IMG/VR virus record: IMGVR_UViG_3300045996_001403
Span: 1 to 59,962 of that record
Source of the DNA: a virus
Strand: one strand, 5' to 3'
DNA length: 59,962 nt
Both the position numbers and the translations under genes were made by a program. The notes beneath the pieces are model-generated. The model was not told where the DNA came from. It ran no database searches and worked only from the letters and a program-made list of their open reading frames with translations. Shown one piece after another: positions 3,922-54,463 of the stretch (positions are counted from its first letter, which is position 1; each line of letters opens with the position of its first letter).

Positions 3922-4371
3922 ATGGAACGCGCCGATGTCGCGCGCCTGCTCAACGTGGCGGAAGCCGACGTGTGCCACTACACCGAGACCGACGAGTCCG
4001 TGTCGGTGATGCTGATCGGTGACGTGGCGAGGCTGTGGACCCCCGACGGGGTGTTCGCGGTCAACGACTGCCCGGCCAACCGTCAGCTCCGTCCCATCCC
4101 GGACGAGTGGAGGGCGCGCGGCGGAACCGTCACCCCGCAGCTCGTCATCGTGGGCGAGACCGGCCCGGAGATCGTGGACCTCCCCGCGGGGGAGGTGGTC
4201 ACCGTGTCGCCGCCCCCGGTCGACGAGGTTCCCGACGGCACGGCGGAGCAGGTGCTCGCCTGGGTCGACGGCGACCCCGACCGTGCCGCGCGGGCGATCG
4301 ACGCGGAGCAGTCACGCGACAAGCCCCGCTCGGTGCTGCTGGCCAACCTGAGGAAGGTGGCCGGCTCGTGA
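3922..4371 (+). CDS. Head-region protein with GETGPE motif and UBA-like tail
   Basis: 149 aa, ATG preceded by GGAGGAC. Unknown function. The central VIVGETGPEIVDLPAGEVV segment (about 75-93) has the V-G-E-x-G-P-E pattern also found in the C-terminal part of this phage's tape measure protein. The C-terminal 45 residues (EQVLAWVDGDPDRAARAIDA onward) look like a small three-helix module of a kind seen in other phage head-gene clusters. Its stop overlaps the next start (GTGA), so it is co-translated with the capsid protein. Candidate minor head or assembly protein. Confidence 0.6.
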   Translation: MERADVARLLNVAEADVCHYTETDESVSVMLIGDVARLWTPDGVFAVNDCPANRQLRPIPDEWRARGGTVTPQLVIVGETGPEIVDLPAGEVVTVSPPPVDEVPDGTAEQVLAWVDGDPDRAARAIDAEQSRDKPRSVLLANLRKVAGS

Positions 4372-7064
4372 CCGACGTACGCCCACTCTGCGGGGACCCG
4401 ACCTGCGGGCCGTGTGCCGAGAAGCGCATGACCGACGCCTACGCCGCAGTCGTGGGCGATACCGACCCCTGCCCCGATTGCGGGCATGTCTGCCGACAGG
4501 AGGCAGCGGTGCGCGTCACCGAAACCACCGAGGCCGCGGCGAAGCCGGACGTCGAATACGCCGACCCCGGCCTCCAGGAGGACGGCAAGCCCCGACTGCC
4601 GCTCAACAACGAGGCCCGGGTGCGCAAGGCGTGGGACTGGATCAACCAGGCCCGCAACGCCACGCACTACAGCCCGGCCGACTGGAAGAAGATTAAGGCC
4701 CGCGTCAAGGCCGCGATGAAGCGACTCGACATCGCGGTGTCGGAGAACTCCACAGAGGCGGTCATCAACGGCCAGCGTTCGTGGGACGAACTGCGGGATC
4801 TGGTCCGCCGGGCCATCCGCGCCCGCATCGAGGCCGGAACCAACGGCTACTGCTGGGTGTACATCGTCGACATCTCCGACACCGACGTGGTGTTCACCGC
4901 AGACGACGACACCCTGTGGCAGGCGCCCTGGTCCATCGACGGCGACACGGTGGCCGTGGACGAGCCGGTGCAGGTGGTGCGCACCTACGCCCCGGTAGAG
5001 GCCGATGACGAGTCCGAGGGTGCCGCCACCGAGTCCGAGGAGCGCGCCCGCGTCGACATCGACGGGGCCCGCATCCTCGAAGCCAAAGGTGAGGCATCCG
5101 ACGGCGGTCGGATCTTCCGGGTGCAGATCATCGCCTACGGCGACAGCAAAAACGGCAGGCGCTACCCGGAGTCGGTAATGCGCGCCGCAGCCTCCCTCTA
5201 CGAGGGGGCGAAGGCGTTCGACCACCACCGCACCGCCGAGGAGATGTCCACCGGCACCATTCAGGGACTGATCGGCTACTACCGCAACGCCTCCGCAGGC
5301 GCCAATGGAGTGGAGGCCGATCTCCACCTGCTCCCCTCCGCGACCCAGGCGGCCGAAGCGCTCGACGCCGCCCTGTCCCAGGAGAGCGCGGAACCGCTCG
5401 TGGGGATCTCCCACGACGTCTACGCGAAGTTCCGGTCGATCCAGGAGAGCGGCCGATCCATCCAGGAGGCGACCGAGATCACCTCGGTCAACTCCGCCGA
5501 CGTCGTCTCCCACCCCGCCGCCGGCGGCAAGGCCACCCGCGTGGTGGCGGGAGGCATCGACACCCCCCAGGACAGGGCGTCCGAGGGGCAGAGCACGAAG
5601 GAGACCGACGTGGCCCTCAGCCGCGAAGATGTGCTCGCCGCGTTCAAGGAGGCGACGGCGGAGGAACTCGCCGCCGTCGGCCTGACCCGGGCGGGCACCC
5701 CCACCATCGAGGCCACCGAGACGGCGAAGCCGGAGCAGGTGACCGAGACCACCGTGGCGAAGGCCTCGATCCTGGGCCGCCTGACCATCAAGGCCAAGGT
5801 CGAGGACGCCCAGCTCCCCGCCGCGGCGATCGAGTCCATCACCACCATGCTGCCCGACCGGATCAGCGAGTCCGACGTGGACACGCAGATCGGCATCTAC
5901 AAGGGCGCGCTGACGGGCCTGGAGCGCGCAGGCCTGGTGCCGCAGCTCGCCAAGGTCGAGGTGACCCAGGAGGCGCACGACAAGAAGGTCACTGCGCTCG
6001 ACGCCTTCTTCGCCGGGGACTACTCCAAGGGCTACCCCTCGTTCCGCGAGGCGTTCATGGACTTCACCGGCCGCGCCCCGCGGTCGCTTGACGGCGACTT
6101 CAACCGGGTCATCGTCTCCGAGTCGATCCGACCCTACGACTCCGGCGTGCGCGCCCACGAGTCGCTCGACACCGGCTCCTGGGCGCAGGCCCTGGGCGAC
6201 TCGATCACCCGGCGCATGGTCGCGCTGTACGGTCAGCCGGGCCTGCAGTCCTGGCGGTCGATCGTCTCCAGCACCGTGCCGGTGAACGACTTCCGCACCC
6301 AGCGCATCCAGCGCGTCGGCGGCCACGGCCTGCTGCCCACCGTCAACCAGGGCGCCCCCTACCAGCCCCTCACCTCGCCCGGGAACGAGGAGGTGACCTA
6401 CGCGCTGGCCAAGAAGGGCGGCACGGAGGACATCACGCTGGAGATGATCGCCAACGACGACGTGCGCGCCATCCAGCAGATCCCCGCGAAGCTCGGCCTC
6501 GCGGCGGCGCAGACGCTGTTCCGGTTCGTCTGGGACTTCTTCGACACCAACGCCACGATCTACGACGGCAAGGCGTTGTTTCACGCCGACCACGCCAACG
6601 CCGGCAGCACCGCGCTGTCGCAGTCGGCGCTGACCGCGGCCCGTGCGGCGATGCGCAGCCAGGCCGCCTACGGCGACTCCAGCAACATCCTGTCGCTGGT
6701 GCCGAAGAAGCTGATCGTGGTCAACGACCTGGAGGAGCTGGCGTTCCAGCTCTCCACCTCCGCGGTCGCGGTGCCCTCGACCCCGGCCGGGCCGTCGGAC
6801 ACCCCGAACATCCACAAGAACATGGAGACCATCGTCGTCGACTACTGGGCCTCCACCACCAAGTGGCTGCTCGTGGCCGACCCGGCGCTGTGCCCGACGT
6901 TCGAGCTGGGCTTCTACCGCGGCCAGGAGCTGCCGGAGCTGTTCACCCAGTCCGACCCGAACACCGGTTCCACGTTCAACGCCGACAAGGTCACCTACAA
7001 GGTGCGCCACATCTACTCCGGCGCGGTGCTGGACTACCGCGGCTTCTACCGCGGCAACAGCTGA
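4368..7064 (+). CDS. Fused capsid maturation protease and major capsid protein
   Basis: 898-aa polyprotein. The N-terminus has paired cysteines (LCGDPTCGPC, CPDCGHVC), then a DUF6582-like helical segment (about 55-120: DPGLQEDGKPRLPLNNEARV). Residues about 230-400 resemble a prohead serine protease, with His in AFDHHRT and candidate Ser in LVGISHDVY. A Lys/Ala/Glu-rich linker probably acts as scaffold. The C-terminal third is a Mu gpT/HK97-type major head protein (IYDGKALFHADHANAGS, LPELFTQSDPNTGSTF). GTG 4368 overlaps the upstream stop. An in-frame GTG at 4509 behind AGGAGG is a serious alternative start that would remove the Cys-rich part. Confidence 0.85.
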   Translation: MTDVRPLCGDPTCGPCAEKRMTDAYAAVVGDTDPCPDCGHVCRQEAAVRVTETTEAAAKPDVEYADPGLQEDGKPRLPLNNEARVRKAWDWINQARNATHYSPADWKKIKARVKAAMKRLDIAVSENSTEAVINGQRSWDELRDLVRRAIRARIEAGTNGYCWVYIVDISDTDVVFTADDDTLWQAPWSIDGDTVAVDEPVQVVRTYAPVEADDESEGAATESEERARVDIDGARILEAKGEASDGGRIFRVQIIAYGDSKNGRRYPESVMRAAASLYEGAKAFDHHRTAEEMSTGTIQGLIGYYRNASAGANGVEADLHLLPSATQAAEALDAALSQESAEPLVGISHDVYAKFRSIQESGRSIQEATEITSVNSADVVSHPAAGGKATRVVAGGIDTPQDRASEGQSTKETDVALSREDVLAAFKEATAEELAAVGLTRAGTPTIEATETAKPEQVTETTVAKASILGRLTIKAKVEDAQLPAAAIESITTMLPDRISESDVDTQIGIYKGALTGLERAGLVPQLAKVEVTQEAHDKKVTALDAFFAGDYSKGYPSFREAFMDFTGRAPRSLDGDFNRVIVSESIRPYDSGVRAHESLDTGSWAQALGDSITRRMVALYGQPGLQSWRSIVSSTVPVNDFRTQRIQRVGGHGLLPTVNQGAPYQPLTSPGNEEVTYALAKKGGTEDITLEMIANDDVRAIQQIPAKLGLAAAQTLFRFVWDFFDTNATIYDGKALFHADHANAGSTALSQSALTAARAAMRSQAAYGDSSNILSLVPKKLIVVNDLEELAFQLSTSAVAVPSTPAGPSDTPNIHKNMETIVVDYWASTTKWLLVADPALCPTFELGFYRGQELPELFTQSDPNTGSTFNADKVTYKVRHIYSGAVLDYRGFYRGNS

Positions 7065-15843: not shown

Positions 15844-15848
15844 CCGCC

Positions 15849-16802
15849 ATGGCCGTCACGGCAGACACTTACTACCCGTTCGACAGTGGAGCGGGAGCGG
15901 ACGTCACGGAAGAGGGCTGGCGCCGGTTCATGCGCTACCTGACCGGCCGGGGCAGCATGGCCAACGGCGTCATCCGCGGCGTCGGCAATCAGCACGAGGT
16001 GTACGCCGACTCCTCCGGCATGCAGGTCAAGGTCAGGACCGGCGAAGTCTGGGAACGCGGCCACTGGGGCGAGCTGACAGGGGAGAAGACCCTGCCCATC
16101 GCCGCCGCCGACCCGACCAACCCCCGCAAGGACCGGGTGATCGCCCGCGCCGCGTTCGGTGACAACCGGATCGAGTACGACGTCCTGCAGGGAACCGCGG
16201 CGGTTTCCCCCACCGCGCCGTCGGTGACCCAAAGCGACACCAAGTGGGAGACGTCGCTCGCGGTGGTGGACGTGCCCGCCGCCGCATCCACGATCGCCGC
16301 GTCGAACGTCGCGGACGCGAGGCTTTTCATCGACGACCTCGACATCACCCCTCGGGGGACCGTCGACATCACGGTCAACAACTCGACCACGCTGACGGAC
16401 GCGACCGGCCTGTCCGCACTGCTGTCGGCCGGCGGCCTGTACCTGCTGGACGGGTACGTCGAGTACTCCGCCGCCACCGCCGCGGACGCCAAGCTTGCGC
16501 TGACCGTGCCCGCCTCCACCACGGGCAGGTGGTACGCGCACGCCCTGGACTCGGGCACTACCGGAACCGCGGGCAACCTGTCCGGGGCCAGCAACTCGAC
16601 GGCCTCGACGCTCGTGCTCGGCGGTGCCGCGGCCGGCACCCGGTGTGTGGCCCGCCTGTCCGGCTGGCTTCAGATGCCTTCCGAGGCCGCGGCCGGATCG
16701 CTGATGAACGTCCAGCTCCAGTTCGCCCAGAACACGGCGAACGCGTCGAACGCCGTGCTCTACCTCAACTCCTGGCTGCGGTTCACCCGCTACCGAACCT
16801 GA
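15849..16802 (+). CDS. Minor tail / receptor-binding-type protein
   Basis: 317 aa, ATG behind GGAGG. The N-terminal 150 residues are baseplate-like (FDSGAGADVTEEGWRRFMRY; KVRTGEVWERGHWGEL). The C-terminal half is beta-rich and Ser/Thr/Ala-rich (ASTTGRWYAHALDSGT), suited to a fibre or carbohydrate-binding tip. Position after the hub protein supports a role in adsorption. Specific receptor unknown. Confidence 0.7.
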   Translation: MAVTADTYYPFDSGAGADVTEEGWRRFMRYLTGRGSMANGVIRGVGNQHEVYADSSGMQVKVRTGEVWERGHWGELTGEKTLPIAAADPTNPRKDRVIARAAFGDNRIEYDVLQGTAAVSPTAPSVTQSDTKWETSLAVVDVPAAASTIAASNVADARLFIDDLDITPRGTVDITVNNSTTLTDATGLSALLSAGGLYLLDGYVEYSAATAADAKLALTVPASTTGRWYAHALDSGTTGTAGNLSGASNSTASTLVLGGAAAGTRCVARLSGWLQMPSEAAAGSLMNVQLQFAQNTANASNAVLYLNSWLRFTRYRT

Positions 16803-24001: not shown

Positions 24002-24264
24002 CACGCCGCCCTGTGCCGGGGGCCGCCATGACTGACGACCCGGAGTCGATGAGGGACCACGACCGGGGCCGGGGGTCGCGCCCCGGTCGTGGCCCGTCCG
24101 CCCTCGTCGGGGGAGGAGAGGGCGGACGCGCGGAGAACCCGGCACCGGGCGCCGATCTCGGCGTACATGGCCCGCCGGGCACGCAGCCGGCGACGGGTCA
24201 CGCGCATGACCAGCAGCACAGCGACCGCGACAACGGCGATCGCTACCGCGCCTGTCCAGTGCAT
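24001..24264 (-). CDS. Membrane protein, first gene of the leftward nest
   Basis: 87 aa, ATG 24264 with GGAGGTG upstream. N-terminal TM helix (GAVAIAVVAVAVLLVM), then a very basic segment (RVTRRRLRARRAM) and a low-complexity tail. It has the only strong ribosome-binding site of the nest and probably leads translation of the three genes behind it. Confidence 0.55.
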   Translation of the reverse strand: MHWTGAVAIAVVAVAVLLVMRVTRRRLRARRAMYAEIGARCRVLRASALSSPDEGGRATTGARPPAPVVVPHRLRVVSHGGPRHRAA

Positions 24265-24567
24265 CGGGCACCTCCGCGAGTAGACGGGGTGCCGGGGCCG
24301 ACCATGTGACCCCGGCACCTTGCCCGACACCCATGCGGCCGGGCATCCCGCCGACGGGGCGACCGACAGCGGGAGATGCGGGACCCGTGCCCCGCGAGAA
24401 GGCCTCGCGGGGCCGGGCCGCCGGACTCGGGCGGGGTGCGTAGGCGGCCTGTCCGAGACCGCTCCCGCCGTTGACCGGCACGGCTGACACTACGACCTGC
24501 ATATGCAGATCGTCCATGCACCGATCGGATGACGCGACGAAACCGCAGGTAGCACTACGCTCTGTGC
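24265..24567. promoter_or_regulatory. Divergent control region of nest and XRE gene
   Basis: About 300 bases without a supported gene. It contains the perfect palindrome CTGCATATGCAG (24497-24508), a candidate operator, and TACGCT (24556-24561) ending 6 bases before GTG 24568, implying a leaderless transcript for the XRE gene. The rest is GC-rich with short inverted repeats (such as CCCCGCGAG/CTCGCGGGG near 24391-24413). No convincing leftward promoter identified. Confidence 0.45.
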
Positions 24568-25413
24568 GTGGCAGTCAAGCGGAAGAGCGTTCTCGGTCGG
24601 GCGTTGAGGGACCTACTGGACAGGGCAGGCAAGACGCCTGCCGATGTCGAGGACCGGCTCGCCTGCTCGCAAGCCAAGGTCAGCCGGATCCTCAATGGTC
24701 GTGTCGGCATCAGACTTGCCGAACTGGAGAGCATCCTTACCCTTTGTAATGCGACAGACGCTGAGATTGCTTCGATCAAGGACAAGTGGCAGGAGGCTCG
24801 GGCCCCGAGCCAGACCGTCACCAGCCTGGCTGACATCCCACCTAAACTTCGATCGCTCGTTCGCCTCCAGTTCGAGGCTTCGGTGATCAGCTACGTACAG
24901 CCGATCGTCATCCCCGGCCTCTTGCAGACCGACAACTTCGCGAGGGCCATTGCCGAAGCTGACGAGTTTGTCGACGGCACGGAGGTAGAGCGGGTGGTCA
25001 CCATCCGAAAACGCAGAGGCGAACTACTGGATCGCCCCAATCCTCCGACCATCCGCGCAGTCATCTCCGAGGGTGCCCTTCGGGATGTCATCGGCGGACC
25101 GGCGGTGATGATTGAGCAACTTGAATGGCTTGCGAAGTTGAGTCGACGCCCCAACGTCGAAATCCGCGTCCGTCCTCATATTGCGGGTGCGCTGGGAACC
25201 ATGAGCGGTGCTGTGACCGTGCTGGAGTTCAGCGACCCGGAGGACTCGCCAAGCGTCTACCTGGAGCACCCCGCCGGTGGCGAATGGGTCGAGGAGGCCG
25301 GTGCGGTTGATCGGTTCAAGCGGGTGTTCGATAAGGCTTCGCAGGGGTCCTTGAGTGCGTCAGGGACTACCGAGTGGATCTCCGCGCGCGTCGCGGAGTT
25401 GAAGAACCTGTGA
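24568..25413 (+). CDS. XRE-family regulator with DUF5753 domain
   Basis: 281 aa, GTG, apparently leaderless. N-terminal HTH (about 8-60: LLDRAGKTPADVEDRLACSQ, then KVSRILNGRVGIRL). C-terminal DUF5753 / Scr1-type domain: YVQPIVIPGLLQTDNFARAI, VTIRKRRGELLDR, PHIAGALGTMSGAVTVLEF, SVYLEHPAGGEWVE. This is a typical actinomycete chromosomal regulator family paired with a DUF397 protein, as here 7 bases downstream. On a phage it looks host-acquired and may regulate host genes or act as an addiction pair. Confidence 0.9.
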   Translation: MAVKRKSVLGRALRDLLDRAGKTPADVEDRLACSQAKVSRILNGRVGIRLAELESILTLCNATDAEIASIKDKWQEARAPSQTVTSLADIPPKLRSLVRLQFEASVISYVQPIVIPGLLQTDNFARAIAEADEFVDGTEVERVVTIRKRRGELLDRPNPPTIRAVISEGALRDVIGGPAVMIEQLEWLAKLSRRPNVEIRVRPHIAGALGTMSGAVTVLEFSDPEDSPSVYLEHPAGGEWVEEAGAVDRFKRVFDKASQGSLSASGTTEWISARVAELKNL

Positions 25414-25420
25414 GGCTGAT

Positions 25421-25618
25421 ATGGACATGTCCGACGCCCGAGCGTGGCGTAAGTCCAGTTACAGCGGCGCCAACAACGACTGCGTCGAGGTCGCCCTCCC
25501 CGAGGAGGGCCTGGCGATCCGTGACACGAAGAATCGTTCCGGCGGGATGGTGACCGTGGGGGCAACCGCCGCGGCGGCCTTCCTCGCGGCGGTCAAGCAG
25601 GGGCGGTTTGACGCCTGA
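25421..25618 (+). CDS. DUF397 protein, partner of XRE regulator
   Basis: 65 aa. Clear DUF397 pattern: ARAWRKSSYSGANNDCVEVA, then LAIRDTKNRSGG and a final AAAFLAAVKQGRFD. In Streptomyces such proteins pair with XRE-DUF5753 proteins (Scr1/Scr2-type, and proposed toxin-antitoxin pairs). The two genes end just before the attP arm repeat, as expected for cargo picked up by imprecise excision or insertion next to attP. Confidence 0.9.
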   Translation: MDMSDARAWRKSSYSGANNDCVEVALPEEGLAIRDTKNRSGGMVTVGATAAAAFLAAVKQGRFDA

Positions 25619-25862
25619 CCTCCGAGCCGGCGGGGTGCCTCGACGTGGCCCCGCCGGTCGCCCCAGTCGCGTCCGTGCGGCGCGCACCTGATCGCCCGTC
25701 AAGCGGAGGCTGCCCCTCGTGGGCGCCGGGAGAAGTGGGGAGAATCTGGGGAGATGATCTTGCCAATCGGACCTCTCCCCACCAACGGGAACCAACGCAT
25801 ACCTACCCCCTGAGCTGCGAAGATGGGCCATAAGTACACCTCAGGGAAGTGCGAAGACGTTA

Positions 25863-25905
25863 CTGGGGGTCAAGGGGTCGCAGGTTCAAATCCTGTCGTC
25901 CCGAC
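25863..25905 (+). other. attP core: 3' half of tRNA-Pro(GGG)
   Basis: Reads as anticodon loop CTGGGGG (anticodon GGG), anticodon stem TCAAG, variable GGGTC, T-arm GCAGG-TTCAAAT-CCTGT, acceptor CGTCCCG, discriminator A. The 5' half of a tRNA is absent, so this is not a gene but the segment that restores the host tRNA-Pro 3' end after integration. Confidence 0.85.
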
Positions 25906-25922
25906 GGTCGAAGTAGCAGGTC

Positions 25923-25959
25923 AGAGGCCCTGCTCTCCAACACGGAGAGCAGGGCCTCT
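25923..25959 (-). terminator. Terminator hairpin between attP core and int
   Basis: Perfect 16-bp stem AGAGGCCCTGCTCTCC / GGAGAGCAGGGCCTCT with a 5-base loop, just after the right end of the core. Placed to stop leftward int transcription before it enters the tRNA core, and after integration to shield the host tRNA. Confidence 0.75.
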
Positions 25960-26001
25960 CCCGTGTGGGGAGAATCTGGGGAGATGATCTTGATCGGGCG
26001 G

Positions 26002-27579
26002 CTAGCGGGCGCGGGCGAACCGCAGCACCTGGCCGCCCCCGCCAGTCGCCTCGGCACGCTCGGCAAGAAGCCGGTCCAACACCGTCACCGCTGACCGCGG
26101 GGACATCCCCAACCGGGCGTCCAACGCGGACTCCCACGCCCCGGTCAGCCCTTCCATCAACCGCTCCCGCATCTCCCGCGTGACGTGGCTGTAGCGCCCC
26201 TGCACCGAGCCGTCCGCGTGTCCGAGGCGTTCGTCCATCAACACGCCGGGCGTGCCCAGCTCCAGCATCAGCGTCTTGTGCGAGTGGCGCAGACCGTGTG
26301 GGGTCAGGCCCGGCGCGAGCGGCACCCAGCAGGCATCGGCCTTGCCGTGCGCGCCCTTGCCCCGCACCGGCACGCCGGGCCACGGTTCTCCCACCACCGG
26401 CACCGGACGCTCCGGGTGCGGCGCCTTCGCCGGGTACAGCCCGGTCGCGGCAGGCTGGAACACCCACGTCGCGAACCCGGACCGACGCCAGTGCGGGGCG
26501 GTCTCGCTCTTCGCGACGCCACGTACGAATCCCGACTCGGACACCGCGACCTCCACCCGCTCGCGCTTCTCCGGAGCGACCTTCTCCGGGTGGTTGAGCA
26601 CGTTGGACACCGTGCCGGTCGACACCCCGGCCAGGCGCGCCACGTCTGCGAGCGTCGCCCCCGAACGACGGGTGGTCTGTCGTGCGGCGTGGGCACCGCG
26701 GAACGCATAGACGTGGCCGTGGCAGTCGCATGTTTCGGGGCGGACGCGGGCGACGTGGTCGGAGAGCAGCCGGTCCAGGAAAGCGGGGGTGTCGATGGTG
26801 CGGTAGGAGTCGTCCTTCGGAGGCACACGGGTCATCACCCCGGTGGAAAGTTCGTACAGCTGCCACTCCACGCGTACCGAGCGCGGTCGGACATACCGGG
26901 TCTCCAGGCCTACGAGTTCTCCCCAGCGCGTCCCCGTGTAGTAGGTCGCGACCAGCAGCGCGAACTCGTCGTCCCGACCGGTGAGCAGTGCCGCCCGTTC
27001 TGCCAGCAGCAGCGCCCCGAGCGGATCCGTGATGGTCTTCTCCGGACTGCGCGCGGCGGACCTTCCTGCAACCTTGCCCCGGCCCCGACGTTTCGCGGCG
27101 GGATTGCGTTCGATCAAGTTGTACGGCGGTTCCGTGGCGTCTTGGAGCATAAGGTGCAAGATCTTGCGCCACTGTCGGACGCTGCTGTCCGCGTAGTCGG
27201 CTCGCCGCTCTTTCGCCTCCCAGGCGGCCACGTCAGACTCTGCGATGGCGTCAAGGTCCATCTCCCCAAAGTGGGGCAGCAAGTGCGCCTCGATGGCAAG
27301 CCGATAGCCCTCCATGGTGGATTCCGCCAGATGTTGAGCGGCATACCATTGAGAGGCAAAGGCATCGAATCGAACTTTGACGTTGACTACGACAGGTCGT
27401 TTGCCGTTGCGGACCTCGGCCTCTTTGTCGTTCGCGGCCTTCTCGGCTTCCCGCTTGGTTCGGAACCTGATTGTCCCGCCGTGCTCATCGGTGACCGTGC
27501 CGTAGTTACCGGGGCCGATCTTGTACCGGCCCCGGTAGTATGCCCCGTCCTTGCCGCCGCGTTTCTCGGCGTACCCCAC
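26002..27579 (-). CDS. int: Tyrosine integrase with inserted LacI-type HTH
   Basis: 525 aa, longer than the usual 370-450. GTG 27579 with GGAGGA upstream. N-terminal arm-binding region (about 1-60), SAM-like core-binding domain (about 70-150), catalytic domain with Arg218 (TGTRWGEL), Lys255 (PPKDDSYR), H428-x-x-R431 (HGLRHS), His454 (LGHAD) and nucleophile Tyr463 (GRYSHV). Between Lys255 and H-x-x-R lies a full LacI-family HTH signature, ADVARLAGVSTGTVSNVLN (311-329), plus the following helix. Residues 283-288 (TCDCHG) could bind metal. Catalyses attP x tRNA-Pro attB recombination. Confidence 0.95.
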   Translation of the reverse strand: MGYAEKRGGKDGAYYRGRYKIGPGNYGTVTDEHGGTIRFRTKREAEKAANDKEAEVRNGKRPVVVNVKVRFDAFASQWYAAQHLAESTMEGYRLAIEAHLLPHFGEMDLDAIAESDVAAWEAKERRADYADSSVRQWRKILHLMLQDATEPPYNLIERNPAAKRRGRGKVAGRSAARSPEKTITDPLGALLLAERAALLTGRDDEFALLVATYYTGTRWGELVGLETRYVRPRSVRVEWQLYELSTGVMTRVPPKDDSYRTIDTPAFLDRLLSDHVARVRPETCDCHGHVYAFRGAHAARQTTRRSGATLADVARLAGVSTGTVSNVLNHPEKVAPEKRERVEVAVSESGFVRGVAKSETAPHWRRSGFATWVFQPAATGLYPAKAPHPERPVPVVGEPWPGVPVRGKGAHGKADACWVPLAPGLTPHGLRHSHKTLMLELGTPGVLMDERLGHADGSVQGRYSHVTREMRERLMEGLTGAWESALDARLGMSPRSAVTVLDRLLAERAEATGGGGQVLRFARAR

Positions 27580-33815: not shown

Positions 33816-34018
33816 GCGACCGCACCGGCTTCGAAAACTTCACGGGCGAGCACCAGCGCGTCACGTACGACCCCGACCGCGCCGCCCAGGGCCTGCCCCC
33901 GTGGGTCAACGAGGACGGCGGCCAGTACTTCCTCGACTCCGAGGTCACCGAGCACACCGAGCAGGAGAAGGCCCGTCTCTCGCTGCTCGACTACATCGCG
34001 GACGGGGGCACGGTGTGA
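33812..34018 (+). CDS. Small protein of duplicated GLPPW family (copy 1)
   Basis: 68 aa, GTGA overlap. Core QGLPPWVNEDGGQYFLDSEV is nearly repeated in the 51-aa protein at 46265 (AGLPPWASEDGGQYFLDSEV), showing an internal paralogue pair 12 kb apart. The rest is hydrophilic. Function unknown. Confidence 0.65.
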   Translation: MSDRTGFENFTGEHQRVTYDPDRAAQGLPPWVNEDGGQYFLDSEVTEHTEQEKARLSLLDYIADGGTV

Positions 34019-34494
34019 GCGACCTCGACCGCGCCATCCGCGACGCCGCTGGCAACGCCAACTGGTTCGGGCTCCACGCCGCCCTGATCGCCGTGTTCGA
34101 CCGGCACAAGCCCCATCCGATCGACGGGGACAAGCCGAACGGCCCGCAGTACTGCGATGCCTGCCTCGGCTCGGACGAGGACTACCTCGGCTACCCGTGC
34201 CCGACCGTGCGGGACATCGCGGACAGGCTGGGCGTGTCGGCCGTGTCCTCCCAGGACACGCCAGCGCCCCGACAGGCACGGTGCGACCGCCGGGCAGGTC
34301 ACCTCGAATCCGGCTCGGGTCTGTGCCTGGTCCGGTGCACCAAGACGCTGGGCTGCACGGACCAGGCCGGACACAGGGGACGGTGCACCACCGGCCTGTG
34401 GGGTCCTCTCGCCCAGGGCTGGGCCGAGAGCGAGTCCACACGGTGTCAGGGGCCCGAGGTGCTGTCCGGGGACGCCACGGGAGACCAGCGATGA
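34015..34494 (+). CDS. Cys-rich protein, probable zinc binder
   Basis: 159 aa, GTGA overlap. N-terminal helices, then YCDACLGSDEDYLGYPCPTV, a pattern frequent in actinophage early proteins, and further Cys/His groups (CDRRAGHLESGSGLCLVRC; CTDQAGHRGRCTTGLW). Two zinc-ribbon-like units are plausible. Function unknown. Confidence 0.65.
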   Translation: MSDLDRAIRDAAGNANWFGLHAALIAVFDRHKPHPIDGDKPNGPQYCDACLGSDEDYLGYPCPTVRDIADRLGVSAVSSQDTPAPRQARCDRRAGHLESGSGLCLVRCTKTLGCTDQAGHRGRCTTGLWGPLAQGWAESESTRCQGPEVLSGDATGDQR

Positions 34495-38033: not shown

Positions 38034-38719
38034 ACGAGAACGTGCAAGCGGCGCTGCGGAAGCCGTTCCCCAAGTCGAAGATCGGCAAGCTGCCCAAGGT
38101 CTGGTGCAACCCGTGTGGCGACCGGAACAAGCAATGTTCCGATCACCAGCGCGAAAAGTGCCGGATCTGCAAGGCGGTCATCACGACCGCACACCTCCAC
38201 GTGAACTTCGTTGGCCACGCCGACGTCACTGATCGCCTGCTAGACGTGGACCCGGAATGGAATTGGGAGCCGATGGCCTTCGATTCCTTCGGCCTGCCCG
38301 CACTCGATGAGCACGGCGGCCTCTGGATCCGCCTCACCATCGCCGGCATCACCCGCCCCGGCTACGGCCACGCCGACGGCAAGCGGGGCGGCAACGCCAT
38401 CAAGGAGTCCATCGGTGACGCCATCCGCAACGCTGCGATGCGGTTCGGCGTGGCGCTGGACCTGTGGCGCAAGGAGACGCCCGAGGCGGACGACGACGTG
38501 CCGGTCCGCGAGGTGGAGCGTCCCGCGCAGACGGTGGAGGAGCGCCGGACGGAACTGCGCGGCCAGATCAACCTGATCGGCACGGCCAAGGGCATGAAGG
38601 TGGACCAGATCGCCGCCGAGTTCACCCAGTGGTCCGGCGAGCAGAAGCTCGACATCCGCGCCGCGGGCCCGGCGACGCTGGCGGAGTACCTGAACTACCT
38701 CCAGCGGGGTACTGCGTGA
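38030..38719 (+). CDS. Rad52-like single-strand annealing protein
   Basis: 229 aa, GTGA overlap. Cys-rich N-terminus (WCNPCGDRNKQC; EKCRICKAVI), then a Rad52/Mgm101-like core: THLxV-type strand AHLHVNFVGHADVTDRLLDV, NWEPMAFDSFGLPALDEHGG, LTIAGITRPGYGHADGKRGG, then the helix IKESIGDAIRNAAMRFGVAL typical of this fold. Anneals complementary strands for phage recombination. Helical C-terminal tail (about 170-229). Confidence 0.8.
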   Translation: MNENVQAALRKPFPKSKIGKLPKVWCNPCGDRNKQCSDHQREKCRICKAVITTAHLHVNFVGHADVTDRLLDVDPEWNWEPMAFDSFGLPALDEHGGLWIRLTIAGITRPGYGHADGKRGGNAIKESIGDAIRNAAMRFGVALDLWRKETPEADDDVPVREVERPAQTVEERRTELRGQINLIGTAKGMKVDQIAAEFTQWSGEQKLDIRAAGPATLAEYLNYLQRGTA

Positions 38720-44864: not shown

Positions 44865-45434
44865 ATGACCGCAGCCACCGCCCGTACCGTCACCACCTCG
44901 GTCCGCCGTGCCCTCCGCTCCGCTGGCCTGCTGGACGCGGTGGTCAAGACCGGCACCCGCCAGGACGGAGACACCTGGGTAACCAACGTCGAGACCGTCA
45001 CCAAGGACCAGGCCGCGGTCGTGGCGGACGACCTGCGCGCCACCTTCCCGGCGGTGGAGGTCCGGGGCGGCATGAACTTCTTCGAGGTCCGGATCACCCA
45101 GCCGGTCGCCACCCCCGAGCCCGCGCCGGTCGTCGAGGAGCAGCCCGCAGCCAAGCCGGTCAAGCGGTGGAAGTCCCGCGACGAGATCCAGGCGGAGCGG
45201 GACAGCCTGGACATGGAACAGGTCAACGAGCTGGTGGACTTCCTGTTCACCGCGTGGCGGGGGCACCGGCTCACGAGCGCCGCCAAGGCGGTCCGCCTGG
45301 AGCACGCCCGGGACCAGGTCCTGCTGGAGTGGGTGGACCACTACCTGAGCGAGCGCATCGGCAGCGTCTCGCCGGTCTACCTCGCGCCGATCCCCGGCAC
45401 CCGCAACTACCTGCTCGACAAGGTCTACGCCTGA
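44865..45434 (+). CDS. Hypothetical protein controlled by the HTH switch
   Basis: 189 aa, ATG behind GGAGGAAG. N-terminal alpha/beta part (RRALRSAGLLDAVVKTGTRQ; AAVVADDLRATFPAVEVRGG), a Pro/Glu linker, then a helical part (MEQVNELVDFLFTAWRGHRL). Not recognised. First gene downstream of the rightward switch promoter, with an own leader of about 48 bases. Confidence 0.65.
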   Translation: MTAATARTVTTSVRRALRSAGLLDAVVKTGTRQDGDTWVTNVETVTKDQAAVVADDLRATFPAVEVRGGMNFFEVRITQPVATPEPAPVVEEQPAAKPVKRWKSRDEIQAERDSLDMEQVNELVDFLFTAWRGHRLTSAAKAVRLEHARDQVLLEWVDHYLSERIGSVSPVYLAPIPGTRNYLLDKVYA

Positions 45435-45450
45435 TCAACCTCACGGCGAA

Positions 45451-45490
45451 ACGGGACTCCGGTCCCGTCTCCCGGATTGGCATTCCGGGA
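45451..45490 (+). terminator. Tandem hairpins
   Basis: ACGGGAC-TCCG-GTCCCGT (45451-45468, perfect 7-bp stem with a TCCG tetraloop of the UNCG type) followed by TCCCGGA / TCCGGGA (45470-45490). No T-run. Could terminate or stabilise the switch-promoter transcript. Confidence 0.5.
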
Positions 45491-45521
45491 CTGACGAGCC
45501 TGCCGCACCAGAGGAGACGAC

Positions 45522-46196
45522 ATGACCGCCGCCCTGTTGGACTCGCACATCACCGCCACCGTCCGCCTCGCCGCAACCCACCTCACCAACGGCAAGCTCC
45601 CCGTCCCCGCCCGCATCCGCGAGCAGTTCGCCCCCGACGCCAAGATCCGCGTCGACCTCATCGACGCGTTCGGCGGCTCCCGCAGCCTCGGCACCTTCAC
45701 CGCGCGGCAGACCGGCATCACCCTCACCGGCATCACCTGGCCCGAGGACATGCGCGCCGACGAGCGCGTCGAGCTGAGCGTCATGCGCGGCGGCGACTCC
45801 CGGTGGATCGGCGTCTACATCGACACCACCCCCGCCCCGGCCGAGCCCCCGAAGCCCGAGTCCGTGCAGGGCGCCGTGCAGATCCTGTCCCGCGAGATCG
45901 TCGCCACCGCCCAGATCAACGGCGGCACCCGCGTTGTCGAACTGTCCATCATCGGGAACACCGACGGGCGCCGGACCTGGACCACCTACCGGACCGCCGC
46001 CTACGACTCCAACCACCCCAACCCCTACCCCTCGGTGGGCATCGGCCCCGCCGACACCCCGGAGCAGATCGAGGCCGCCCGCGCCGACGCGAGCACCCTG
46101 CTCGACCCCAGCGGCGACCCGCAGTGCTGCGACTGCTGGTCTGGTTGGGACCCCTACTGCGGCAAGACCGGCTGCTGGGGCGTCTACCGCCCCTGA
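45522..46196 (+). CDS. Hypothetical protein with Cys-rich tail
   Basis: 224 aa, ATG behind GAGGAGA. Beta-rich middle (RVDLIDAFGGSRSLGTFTAR; TGITLTGITWPEDMRADERV) and a C-terminal cysteine cluster CCDCWSGWDPYCGKTGCWG (five Cys) that could bind zinc. Function unknown. Confidence 0.65.
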   Translation: MTAALLDSHITATVRLAATHLTNGKLPVPARIREQFAPDAKIRVDLIDAFGGSRSLGTFTARQTGITLTGITWPEDMRADERVELSVMRGGDSRWIGVYIDTTPAPAEPPKPESVQGAVQILSREIVATAQINGGTRVVELSIIGNTDGRRTWTTYRTAAYDSNHPNPYPSVGIGPADTPEQIEAARADASTLLDPSGDPQCCDCWSGWDPYCGKTGCWGVYRP

Positions 46197-46653: not shown

Positions 46654-47199
46654 GTGCCTCCGCTCAAGCATCACTCCATCAGTTCGTCCGCCCGATCGCT
46701 GTCCGACCTCGTGCACTCCGTCGACTCCGGCGACCTCGACCTGTCCCCGCCGTACCAGCGCGGCGACGTGTGGACCGACGCGCAGCGCGCCAACCTGATC
46801 AAGTCCATCCTGATCGGCATCCCGATCGCGGCGATCGTGCTGAACCGCCGCGGCGACAACCGGGCATGGGAGCAGCGCACGGGCAGGCTCAAGATGAGCG
46901 AGCCCTACTTCGCTTGCATCGACGGCAAGCAGCGCCTGACCACGGTCGGCCTGTGGCTGAACGACGGACTGTGGGTGCCGGGCGAGTGGTTCGACGGGGT
47001 GTACGGCGCGGCCGTCGTGACCTACCAGATGCTGCCGGTGGTCACCCAGCGGTTCTTCCTCAACCGCGCCGTCATTCCGGTTGCCGAAGCCACGCTGGGC
47101 AGCGTCGAAGAGGAGGCGGAGGTGTACGACCTCATCAACTCCGCTGGCACCGCGCACACCCGGGCCGACCTGGACCGCGCCCGCGCACTGCGGGCCTGA
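46654..47199 (+). CDS. DUF262 (GmrSD N-domain/ParB-like) protein
   Basis: 181 aa, GTG behind AGGAGAA. Characteristic motifs: LSPPYQRGDVWTDAQRANLI (31-50), KSILIGIPIAAIVLNRRGD, and CIDGKQRLTTVGLW (88-101, the DG[Q/K]QR-type NTP-binding signature). In GmrSD type IV restriction systems this domain is the NTPase of a two-part enzyme; here it stands alone, without the DUF1524 nuclease. Role in phage unknown: possible counter-defence decoy, or nucleic-acid enzyme. Confidence 0.85.
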   Translation: MPPLKHHSISSSARSLSDLVHSVDSGDLDLSPPYQRGDVWTDAQRANLIKSILIGIPIAAIVLNRRGDNRAWEQRTGRLKMSEPYFACIDGKQRLTTVGLWLNDGLWVPGEWFDGVYGAAVVTYQMLPVVTQRFFLNRAVIPVAEATLGSVEEEAEVYDLINSAGTAHTRADLDRARALRA

Positions 47200-50923: not shown

Positions 50924-51243
50924 GCCCCGAAGAGATCCTGACCGTCCTCAACGGCCTGGAGCCGGTGAACACGGACGACTGGGTGTTCTGCGTCATCACG
51001 CGCGGCTCCCGCGAGCACTACAACTCCCGTACCGGTCAGATCGAACCGCGCGACGAAGAGTCATGGTGGCCGTTCGAGAAGGGGGAGGTCGTCGTCCTCG
51101 ACGACGAGTACGGTCGTGAGCCGTTTGGAGAGGAGCGCAAGCCTTCGAAGTGGGACCTGGAGGTGGAGCACTTCGACTCGCTGGCGGACGCCGTTGCGTG
51201 TCGGGAGGCCGTGCTGGCGGGCACGTGGAAGGCGGACGGGTGA
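50920..51243 (+). CDS. Hypothetical protein
   Basis: 107 aa, GTGA overlap. Acidic, with strands and Trp/Phe (NTDDWVFCVITRGSREHYNS; ESWWPFEKGEVVVLDDEYG). Function unknown. Confidence 0.6.
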   Translation: MSPEEILTVLNGLEPVNTDDWVFCVITRGSREHYNSRTGQIEPRDEESWWPFEKGEVVVLDDEYGREPFGEERKPSKWDLEVEHFDSLADAVACREAVLAGTWKADG

Positions 51244-52713: not shown

Positions 52714-52741
52714 TTGCTTTAGCTTGTACAGAGGTCATGAT
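52714..52741 (+). promoter_or_regulatory. Promoter of the 309-aa zinc/HTH gene
   Basis: TTGCTT (52714-52719), 16-base spacer, CATGAT (52736-52741), start near 52748. It matches a GTG at 52776 behind GGGAGG. CTCTGACCTGC at 52700-52710 just upstream is the same 11-mer repeated at the right end of the genome. Confidence 0.45.
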
Positions 52742-52775
52742 TACCCGTACAGCCACAGTGGACCGGGAGGCATCC

Positions 52776-53705
52776 GTGCAGGACTTCGTTCCCTCGTGCG
52801 TCGTCTGTGGCGCGGTCTCCGGGCGGCCCCTGTGTGGCAGCGAACGGGCCCTCACCGGGTGCCTCGGGAAGCTCCTCCGCGAGTTGGGCCGCATCACCGA
52901 CCTGGTGGAGGAGCTGGACACCACCATCGCCCGCCTGGACAAGACCGGCGGTGGCTCGGTCGGGTACGTCAGCAACGGCGCCGACGAGAAGCCCTTGCCG
53001 ATCAACATGGCCGCGACCGAGCCCAAGCTTCTCCTGCGCGACCGGCTGATCTCGTGGTGTCGGGACCTGTGGGAGACCAACGCCGCCCGCAACGAGGACG
53101 GCTCGGTGCCCCCGCTGGACCTCCGGTTCGGTGTGGCCCCCGCCGCCCTGTGGCTGCTGCGCCACCCCTCGTGGATCGCCTCCCACGAAGCCGTCTACGA
53201 GCTGTACGACGAAGTCATGGAGACGACCCGCCTCGCGTGGCGCGCAGTGGACACCGCCCCCGACCGGGTCTACATCGGCACCTGCTCCGCCCCGCTCGCC
53301 GCGGAGTCCGGAACGGAGCAGTGTGCGGAGGAGCTGTACGCCCGCGACGGAGACTGGGAGAAGCGCTGCCCGGGATGCGGAACCATCCACGACGTGCGGG
53401 AGCGCCAGGCCGCTCTTGCCGCCGCCGTAGAGCACCAGTACGTGTCCCCGGGCTTCCTGGTGGGCCTCGTCCGCGACCGGGGAGACCGGCTCACCACGGC
53501 CATGCTGCGCAGCCTTCTGCGCCGGGGCAGGATCGCCGCTTTCGTCCACCTCGACGAGAACCACCCGGGCGCGGGGGTGCTGGACCGGCATGGCTGGCTG
53601 GTCCGCCCATGGGTGTCCGGCCAGGACCCGGTCGACGTCCGCCTGTACCGGGTGGGGCAGGTGCTGGACGCGATCACCAACCGGTATTCGAGGCAGGCCG
53701 CGTAA
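52776..53705 (+). CDS. Zinc/HTH DNA-binding protein (actinophage type)
   Basis: 309 aa. GTG 52776 has GGGAGG 5 bases upstream, preferred over ATG 52737. N-terminal Cys ribbon (SCVVCGAVSGRPLCGSERAL; TGCLGKLLRELGRITDLVEE), a central pattern ATEPKLLLRDRLISWCRDLW, a second Cys group (RCPGCGTIHDVRER), and a C-terminal HTH (LTTAMLRSLLRRGRIAAF). Proteins with this two-ribbon plus HTH plan are common in actinophages, usually annotated as DNA binding. Regulatory target unknown. Confidence 0.75.
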   Translation: MQDFVPSCVVCGAVSGRPLCGSERALTGCLGKLLRELGRITDLVEELDTTIARLDKTGGGSVGYVSNGADEKPLPINMAATEPKLLLRDRLISWCRDLWETNAARNEDGSVPPLDLRFGVAPAALWLLRHPSWIASHEAVYELYDEVMETTRLAWRAVDTAPDRVYIGTCSAPLAAESGTEQCAEELYARDGDWEKRCPGCGTIHDVRERQAALAAAVEHQYVSPGFLVGLVRDRGDRLTTAMLRSLLRRGRIAAFVHLDENHPGAGVLDRHGWLVRPWVSGQDPVDVRLYRVGQVLDAITNRYSRQAA

Positions 53706-53713
53706 CCCCCGAG

Positions 53714-53742
53714 TTGACACGGCGAAAGTGAACGCCTAGATT
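53714..53742 (+). promoter_or_regulatory. Near-consensus promoter before RNA island
   Basis: TTGACA (53714-53719), 17-base spacer, TAGATT (53737-53742). Best promoter in the window by consensus match. Starts a transcript near 53749 into a region without supported genes, containing hairpins and a tRNA. Confidence 0.8.
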
Positions 53743-53748
53743 TCCTAG

Positions 53749-53850
53749 TGTCGGGTTTCATGTCGAGCGACACCGCTTGCGAAGCCCGCGTCGGAACCTT
53801 GCAGACGGGAGCCGCCCCCGGGCCGCTCCCGTCTTCGCGTTCCGACCCTT
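53749..53850 (+). ncRNA. Candidate structured small RNA
   Basis: About 100 nt after the consensus promoter. Predicted stems: GTGTCG/CGACAC (53748-53753, 53768-53773), alternative GGGTTTC/GAAGCCC (53753-53759, 53781-53787), and a long bulged hairpin GTCGGAAC/GTTCCGAC (53790-53797, 53839-53846) enclosing AGACGGGAGC/GCTCCCGTCT (53803-53812, 53825-53834). No coding evidence. It ends CCCTTCTC without a strong T-run. Could be a leader of the tRNA transcript or a separate sRNA. Confidence 0.5.
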
Positions 53851-53934
53851 CTCGTCCACTGCCTGCCAGACACACGTCTCCGCGGTCTCCTGACCGACTC
53901 ATGACACACCTGGGCACGCGCAGTGGCACCACCC

Positions 53935-53978
53935 GCTCGACGTGCGGAGGCCCCGGCTTCCGGCGCGCCACGTCGAGC
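53935..53978 (+). other. Hairpin directly before the tRNA
   Basis: Perfect 10-bp inverted repeat GCTCGACGTG (53935-53944) / CACGTCGAGC (53969-53978), ending five bases before the tRNA. May guide 5' processing of the tRNA or be a separate RNA element. Confidence 0.5.
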
Positions 53979-53982
53979 ACAC

Positions 53983-54066
53983 GGAAGATGGCGGCGCTGG
54001 TGCGCCAAACCGGTTGCTAGCCGGTCGCCGGGTTAATGCCCGAGGGTTCGACTCCTTCATCTTCCT
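53983..54066 (+). tRNA. tRNA-Ser(GCT)
   Basis: Acceptor GGAAGAT (53983-53989) / ATCTTCC (54059-54065); D arm GGCGC-TGGT-GCGCC with a shortened loop; anticodon stem ACCGG / CCGGT with loop TTGCTAG (54014-54020), anticodon GCT; long class II variable arm (CGGG-TTAATG-CCCG); T arm GAGGG-TTCGACT-CCTTC. CCA not encoded. The reduced D loop and T discriminator are unusual and leave some doubt about function. Confidence 0.75.
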
Positions 54067-54068
54067 CG

Positions 54069-54181
54069 GAGGCGCGTCCATCACGGGCGCGCCTACCCAA
54101 AACTGCGGGGTGCGAGAGCCCCGCGGATCCGGCCACGACCCCTTGAGCGCTGGCGGCGGCGATGCGCTCGGGGTCGTGGCC
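54069..54181 (+). terminator. Three hairpins after the tRNA
   Basis: AGGCGCG / CGCGCCT (54070-54094), GCGGGG / CCCCGC (54105-54124) and a strong stem GGCCACGACCCC-TT-GAGCGC / GCGCTC-GGGGTCGTGGCC (54131-54181). The third is a probable terminator or processing end of the tRNA transcript and lies 20 bases before the next gene. Confidence 0.6.
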
Positions 54182-54202
54182 CCCTAACGTTCGGGAGGTG
54201 CG

Positions 54203-54463
54203 GTGAGCGCGGCGCGCAAGCGAAGGAAGCTCAGTAAGTCCCACCTCACATGGGAGAACCCATACACGGGCGAGAAGCAGTACACCTCGGGCAAGGGTGC
54301 GGTGTTCGCAGCCCGCTTCGATCGCCTGTGGAACAAGCGCAAGCTGTCCGATCCGTCCTACCTGACGGGACGGTCGTTGGCGAATGCTCCGGTGAAGTAC
54401 TCGCGCTGCCCCACCTGCGCAGGAGCGCCGCATCACCCGCCGTCGTTCTTCATGGCACGCTGA
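54203..54463 (+). CDS. Small basic protein
   Basis: 86 aa, GTG behind GGGAGG. Basic N-terminus (AARKRRKLSKSHLTWENPYT), KGAVFAARFDRLWNKRKLSD and CPTCAG with a Cys pair. Could bind nucleic acid. Function unknown. Confidence 0.6.
   Translation: MSAARKRRKLSKSHLTWENPYTGEKQYTSGKGAVFAARFDRLWNKRKLSDPSYLTGRSLANAPVKYSRCPTCAGAPHHPPSFFMAR

Follow-up and report, generated by a model that had tools for sequence, protein, structure and literature searches.

Positions 53714-54202 of the window, i.e., of the whole 59,962-bp virus record that was analysed, probably form a small non-coding transcription unit producing a tRNA-Ser(GCU) that belongs to a class with an 8-bp acceptor stem and a 4-bp T-stem (8/4) and would decode AGC and AGU during infection. 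This reading builds on direct observation of the promoter sequence, the folding of the region, the membership of the tRNA in its class and the covariation of its pairs. In the transcript that we envisage, a strong housekeeping-type promoter would initiate a folded leader of about 234 nt, followed by one phage tRNA at 53983-54066, while three hairpins separate the tRNA from the next gene, and the RNA would either stop among them or continue past them.

The non-coding gap and its promoter

The gap at 53706-54202 (497 bases) lies between the ORFs 52737-53705 (phrog_908) and 54203-54463, and is the longest of the genome by the ORF picks made here. The downstream gene (86 aa, + strand) starts with GTG, has GGGAGG ahead of it and lacks a family match. 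Chance ORFs inside the gap gave no Pfam match, in line with the original prediction that the region holds no supported gene. The same prediction placed the best promoter of the genome here. Indeed, the sigma-70 / HrdB-like promoter TTGACA-17-TAGATT (53714-53742, + strand) is the only site on either strand of the whole 60 kb with at least 10 of 12 matches to TTGACA/TATAAT. Its -35 box (TTGACA, 53714-53719) and its -10 box (TAGATT, 53737-53742) are separated by a 17-nt spacer, with a predicted start near 53748-53750. Between 50.0 and 60.0 kb we observed one promoter site passing this threshold, against 0.5 +/- 0.8 in shuffled sequences.

The region from 53745 to 54202 folds at -256 kcal/mol (z -8.2), and none of 100 shuffles folded as well. 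The gap is also the most structured of the genome when gaps are compared by folding (z -6.8), the runner-up being the attP region (z -4.2). Across 94 intergenic gaps, taken from this genome and from right-arm stretches of related phages, a single one equals it. That gap, on the reverse strand of the related contig L141 (17174-17532; G001, about 2369-2727; z -6.8), had no detected tRNA. The gap had been called striking amid a gene density near 100%. It is the longest and, by a wide margin, the most structured, but the density was overstated, as five other gaps span 380-430 bp (15844-16243, 24183-24567, 25619-26001, 33816-34196 and 38034-38463).

The serine tRNA and its phage class

The tRNA-Ser(GCT) of the original prediction was called by ARAGORN at 53983-54067, and we place it at 53983-54066 (+ strand, anticodon at 54016-54018). 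What had been overlooked is that the tRNA itself is the unusual, conserved part of the island. From its 5' end it consists of the acceptor strand GGAAGAU, G8 in place of the absent U8, the linker GC, a tRNA-Sec-like D-arm (GGCGC-UGGU-GCGCC, 53993-54006) with a 5-bp stem and a UGGU tetraloop, an AA joint, the anticodon arm ACCGG-UUGCUAG-CCGGU, a long variable arm (CGGG-UUAAUG-CCCG), the T-loop UUCGACU, the 3' strand of the acceptor and U73, with no encoded CCA. In the 8/4 reading, the 5' strand of the 8-bp acceptor stem is at 53983-53990 and pairs with 54058-54065. The best Rfam family is tRNA-Sec (RF01852), at 42.2 bits and thus below the 47-bit cut-off, and the tRNA was not listed at the gathering threshold of the canonical tRNA family RF00005 (29 bits). 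Ordinary tRNAs elsewhere, including the tRNA-Ser of phiCbK, score 40-71 bits as RF00005.

This tRNA is part of a class of compact serine tRNAs that combines the 8/4 build with a D-stem of 5-7 bp, a GG-containing tetraloop and a long variable arm. In addition, two extra pairs connect the linker between acceptor and D-arm to the base of the variable arm. A first scan of IMG/VR, with a pattern restricted to the D-loop, the anticodon loop and the T-arm, returned 22 contigs: several had ordinary D-arms, and at least 10 had a compact D-arm with perfect stems differing in sequence. Two more pattern scans brought the total to 70 distinct compact sequences in the collected loci. The class occurs in many unrelated phages, and its serine anticodons are GCU, UGA, AGA, CGA and GGA. 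One member queried against named phages led to the phiCbK group, Brevundimonas phage Bajun, Roseobacter phage DSS3P8, Gordonia phages and others, and the named phages with the class also include Gsput1, Yvonnetastic/JonJames and the Streptomyces phages Stella, Dennebes, FlowerPower, WRightOn and Immanuel3. Stella, Dennebes, WRightOn and Immanuel3 carry two compact tRNAs each (AGA and GCU). The tRNA-Ser(GCU) of T5 has a small D-arm that is ordinary, and was therefore excluded.

In phiCbK (JX100813, about 50942-51025; L190, about 596-679), an unannotated compact tRNA-Ser(GCU) directly follows the annotated tRNA-Ser(UCG) and tRNA-Ser(UCC); the annotation of this genome used tRNAscan-SE and Rfam (PMC3556154). 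Compact copies are likewise unannotated in Bajun (L195), DSS3P8 (L193), Gsput1 (L191) and Yvonnetastic (L204). The class is found mainly in phages, and in well-studied genomes such as that of phiCbK it has escaped tRNAscan-SE, ARAGORN or Rfam cut-offs, which shows that published phage genomes undercount serine tRNAs. When 198 actinobacterial genomes were searched with the covariance model R1, the best match was clearly compact in two, Rhizocola hellebori (72.4 bits) and one other genome (52.5 bits), both times within a tRNA gene array. No other best match scored above about 45 bits, and the ones inspected were ordinary tRNAs. The compact form is rare on these actinobacterial chromosomes and common in phage tRNA arrays, in a comparison with uneven sampling, as a pattern was used for viral contigs and a model for genomes. 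Chromosomal tRNA arrays including a compact tRNA-Ser are found at L175 2131-2214 (Rhizocola hellebori) and in L206.

We analysed covariation in a nearly gap-free alignment of nine sequences of the phage tRNA's own subtype. Under the 8/4 structure, 98% of the cells are paired and 17 of the 28 pairs changed on both sides; all five D-stem pairs covary, and positions 8 and 65 are paired in this set too. This covariation was reached by none of 500 shuffles, and sliding the partner by 1-3 columns lowered pairing to 42-52%. The covariance model R2, built from the eight other sequences with the phage tRNA left out, matched it with 69.4 bits (E 2.2e-14), as the sole match in the phage genome.

Taken by itself, the phage tRNA can also be drawn as 7/5 (G49-C65 is possible), so its 8/4 assignment rests on the class. 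Positions 8 and 65 form a Watson-Crick pair in 51 of the 60 compact members without U8 (28 G-C, 21 A-U and 2 C-G). By comparison, these positions are paired in 39 of 330 other class II tRNAs, 290 of which pair 49 with 65 instead. Since no search pattern fixed position 8 or 65, their pairing supports the 8/4 branch independently of the searches. Of the 28 members of the subtype whose linker has 3 nt, 27 pair positions 9-10 with 44-45 (GC/GC in 22, GA/UC in four and CG/CG in one). Because GC and GCC were fixed in the UCN scan, independent examples of this contact are limited to GA/UC, CG/CG and the members from outside that scan. The lone exception is the phage tRNA at 53983-54066, where an inserted C (54026) shifts the contact by one base.

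The phage tRNA resembles the allo-tRNAs of Mukai et al. 2017, whose published hosts are Clostridia, Proteobacteria and Acidobacteria (PMC7609411). They share a 12-bp acceptor branch, which allo-tRNAs have in 8/4 or 9/3 form and which is here compatible with 8/4 (the single sequence also allowing 7/5), a long Sec-like D-stem and the long variable arm of a serine-type tRNA. Unlike most published allo-tRNAs, the phage tRNA has a true serine anticodon; it also differs in being phage-borne, in U73 and in the extra two-pair contact of its linker with the base of the variable arm. The original allo-tRNA set, compared here as reviewed in PMC7609411 and PMC7590224, may already include phage sequences. 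Within the class, the nearest members are the tRNA-Ser(AGA/UGA) of WRightOn, Stella, Dennebes and the IMG/VR contigs L252, L243 and L154, at 73-76% identity. The lengths of the linker and D-arm and the AA joint are alike in the phage tRNA and the Streptomyces phage and IMG/VR members, and its T-arm (GAGGG-UUCGACU-CCUUC) is identical to that of WRightOn. These members mostly lie in arrays of many tRNAs (12-33 for the nearest) and themselves carry UCN anticodons, whereas the present copy is solitary, has a promoter to itself and is flanked by hairpins. The long D-stem, the UGGU tetraloop and the long variable arm are shared with tRNA-Sec (RF01852), but the anticodon is GCU and not UCA, the acceptor branch has 12 pairs and not 13, and the score is below the gathering value. 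Canonical bacterial tRNA-Ser have in common with it the GCU anticodon, the long variable arm and the T-loop; in contrast to them, it lacks U8 and a large D-loop, and the 8-65 pair replaces the canonical core. Code engineering could draw on this class for new natural tRNA frames of the 8/4 type.

U73 is unusual for tRNA-Ser; among the 60 compact members it occurs in 10, and G73 in 42. Together with G8 and the additional C at 54026, which puts the linker contact out of register, it would suit a tRNA-like decoy or a decayed tRNA, one that keeps the fold but is neither charged nor used in translation, and that either titrates a host tRNA nuclease or is a relic. Some published allo-tRNAs are unusable or uncharged in E. 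coli (PMC7609411), which would point the same way. We nevertheless consider such a decoy or relic unlikely, because the acceptor, D, anticodon and T pairs are all intact, the T-loop UUCGACU and the anticodon loop are regular, a dedicated promoter precedes the tRNA, and U73 recurs in other intact members, one of them with CCA in Rhizocola.

We favour a tRNA that works in translation. It would be transcribed, cut from its precursor by RNase P, given its CCA afterwards and charged with serine by SerRS. Allo-tRNAs whose variable arm is long do become charged (PMC7609411), which makes such charging plausible, although U73 leaves doubt. The tRNA would then decode AGC and AGU when the host tRNA-Ser is limiting or destroyed. 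AGC makes up 21.7% and AGU 4.6% of the serine codons of the phage (26% together), so that a GCU tRNA would be useful, but not as an aid for rare codons. Phage tRNAs have long been puzzling, and recent work ties them to escape from tRNA-cleaving defences (PMC10264068). They were proposed to replace host tRNAs cut by nucleases, and mycobacteriophages keep tRNA-Ser(GCU) and avoid the UCN serine tRNAs cleaved by anticodon nucleases (PMC10264068). The present unit would fit this replacement view. More speculatively, the deviant shape may hide the tRNA from host tRNA nucleases, and the class offers a concrete case for asking whether shape protects a tRNA. One could go further and suggest, very tentatively, that phages of many hosts keep a separate class of serine tRNAs, seldom present in host chromosomes and mostly overlooked by annotation, for the sake of a shape that evades tRNA-destroying defences and still permits charging with serine; the present phage would add to this a dedicated promoter and a single copy wrapped in a protective precursor rich in hairpins.

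Hairpins flanking the tRNA

The original prediction counted at least six stable inverted repeats in the gap. Besides the tRNA we found seven hairpins, all on the + strand, with individual folding z-scores from -2.6 to -5.7. In the leader, hairpin A (53750-53789, main stem 53752-53759/53781-53788; z -2.8) is abutted by hairpin B, a long stem with an internal bulge (53790-53846; z -5.7). These are followed by the imperfect hairpin C (53856-53926; z -2.6) and by hairpin D (53935-53978; z -3.1), which stops 4 nt short of the 5' end of the tRNA. The trailer begins 3 nt past the tRNA with hairpin E (54070-54094; z -5.0). It continues with hairpin F (54103-54126; z -3.8), which is terminator-like on the minus strand, and with hairpin G (54131-54181; z -5.7), which has a 12-bp outer stem and an inner stem, lacks a U-tract and lies 21 nt ahead of the GTG of the next gene. 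As had been predicted for about the first 100 nt, two adjacent hairpins form within the first 106 nt, and the second has an internal bulge (z -6.0). An H-type pseudoknot at hairpin A is possible but less stable (-7.4 kcal/mol for stem 1 alone and -10.1 for stem 2 alone, against -19.8 for the nested hairpin), and thus gained no support.

Leader and trailer as wholes have z-scores of -5.7 and -5.9. The upstream flanks of other class members range from -2.9 to 0.5, against -8.3 here; flanks as structured as these are missing from the other members, so the hairpins need more than the tRNA to explain them. The leader matched none of 4227 Rfam families, and an exact scan of IMG/VR for hairpin A gave no match. 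DNA relatives of the whole island were absent from INPHARED phages, PLSDB plasmids and 50 records, mostly of TerL-related phages, in which the best hits were fragments of 13-40 bp. Used as baits, the proteins of the 54203 and 52737 ORFs had no close relatives; the MRE11-like neighbour has relatives, but these are outside the TerL family and lack the island. The compact tRNA is absent from the syntenic right arms of relatives (L132-L151), where the lone tRNAs are ordinary Met and Trp. Among these related phages, L139, L142, L144 and L145 have a single ordinary tRNA, either an initiator-like tRNA-Met(cat) or a tRNA-Trp, near the TerL-proximal or the right genome end. The original prediction had tied its case to conservation and covariation in relatives: as far as could be searched, the leader and trailer have neither, whereas the tRNA clearly has both.

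Leader and trailer may serve in processing or protection, act as attenuators or form a put-like antiterminator. In the last case, hairpins A and B would modify RNA polymerase, leading to readthrough of hairpins E-G into the right-arm genes, with the tRNA as a passenger. The put sites of HK022 have a comparable two-hairpin layout. Here, two abutting hairpins, the second one bulged, lie right at the predicted start, and three strong hairpins and then genes lie downstream. The resemblance is however in layout only, with no sequence relative or Rfam match, and we regard a put-like leader as improbable. The original prediction had also proposed an independent regulatory RNA or an RNA mimic. The exceptional folding of the leader and trailer and the strong promoter would agree with this, yet no relatives allowing a covariation analysis were found and the Rfam search of the leader was negative. 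Of that proposal, the non-coding RNA island and the tRNA-processing leader fit our results; the regulatory RNA or mimic gained no positive evidence and seems doubtful.

The phage genome and its candidate attachment site

The left end of the genome carries genes for TerS, TerL, portal, capsid and tail. An endolysin, a tyrosine integrase (26002-27579), an anti-repressor-like protein and a replication protein follow, and the right arm has HNH and MRE11-like genes. The phage is a temperate siphophage, with a soil actinobacterium as its probable host. TerL has relatives in 75 IMG/VR contigs, with identities of 52-77% and, for a few distant ones, 28-38%, and one in a contig of the Rhizocola hellebori genome (66% identity). 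Many of the contigs with a TerL relative stop 515-620 bp ahead of the TerL match, as does the phage genome; position 1 is therefore probably the physical genome end.

Next to the integrase we identified an attP candidate (25735-25992) bounded by perfect 28-bp direct repeats (25735-25762 and 25965-25992). Over 44-47 bp, its core (25862-25905) shows 100% identity with tRNA-Pro(GGG) genes of many actinobacteria, matching their 3' half. Hence, the phage probably integrates at tRNA-Pro and would rebuild it, and the serine tRNA has another role. The dense inverted repeats of the non-coding gap might suggest a DNA-level site (attP, cos or replication origin), but this is very unlikely, given that attP lies at 25.7-26.0 kb and that the contig ends of the relatives place the physical end at position 1. 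The lone tRNA of a temperate actinophage with a tyrosine integrase (PF00589) is the setting of tRNA-dependent lysogeny (PMC10865867), in which integration would destroy a tRNA-Ser(GCU) gene of the host, to be replaced by the one on the phage. We rejected this scarcely credible option because the attP core is of isotype Pro and not Ser, failing the required match with the attB tRNA, and because a core of 44-47 bp would rebuild the host tRNA, unlike the short, non-rebuilding core that tRNA-dependent lysogeny calls for.

Several other features of the genome were observed. The integrase (- strand) matches PF14659 and PF00589, and between these integrase domain matches, at residues 309-352, lies a LacI-type HTH match (PF00356, E 2e-15). 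Next to attP, at 24568-25618 (+ strand), a DUF5753/HTH_31 protein and a DUF397 protein form an actinobacterial regulator pair. An ORF of 1009 aa (4035-7064, + strand) combines a DUF6582 match with a phage capsid domain, and is perhaps a protease-scaffold-capsid fusion. The tRNA-Gly(gcc) called by ARAGORN at 641-720 lies inside the terL ORF (511-2217) and is very likely a false positive. The protein encoded at 46654-47196 (+ strand) matches the N-terminal domain of the GmrSD restriction endonuclease (PF03235, E 6e-16) and is possibly defence-related. Finally, a type II hammerhead ribozyme (45444-45508, + strand; 42.1 bits, above the Rfam cut-off) lies between the ORFs 44865-45434 and 45522-46196, and both of its catalytic core motifs, CUGACGAG and CGAAAC, are present.
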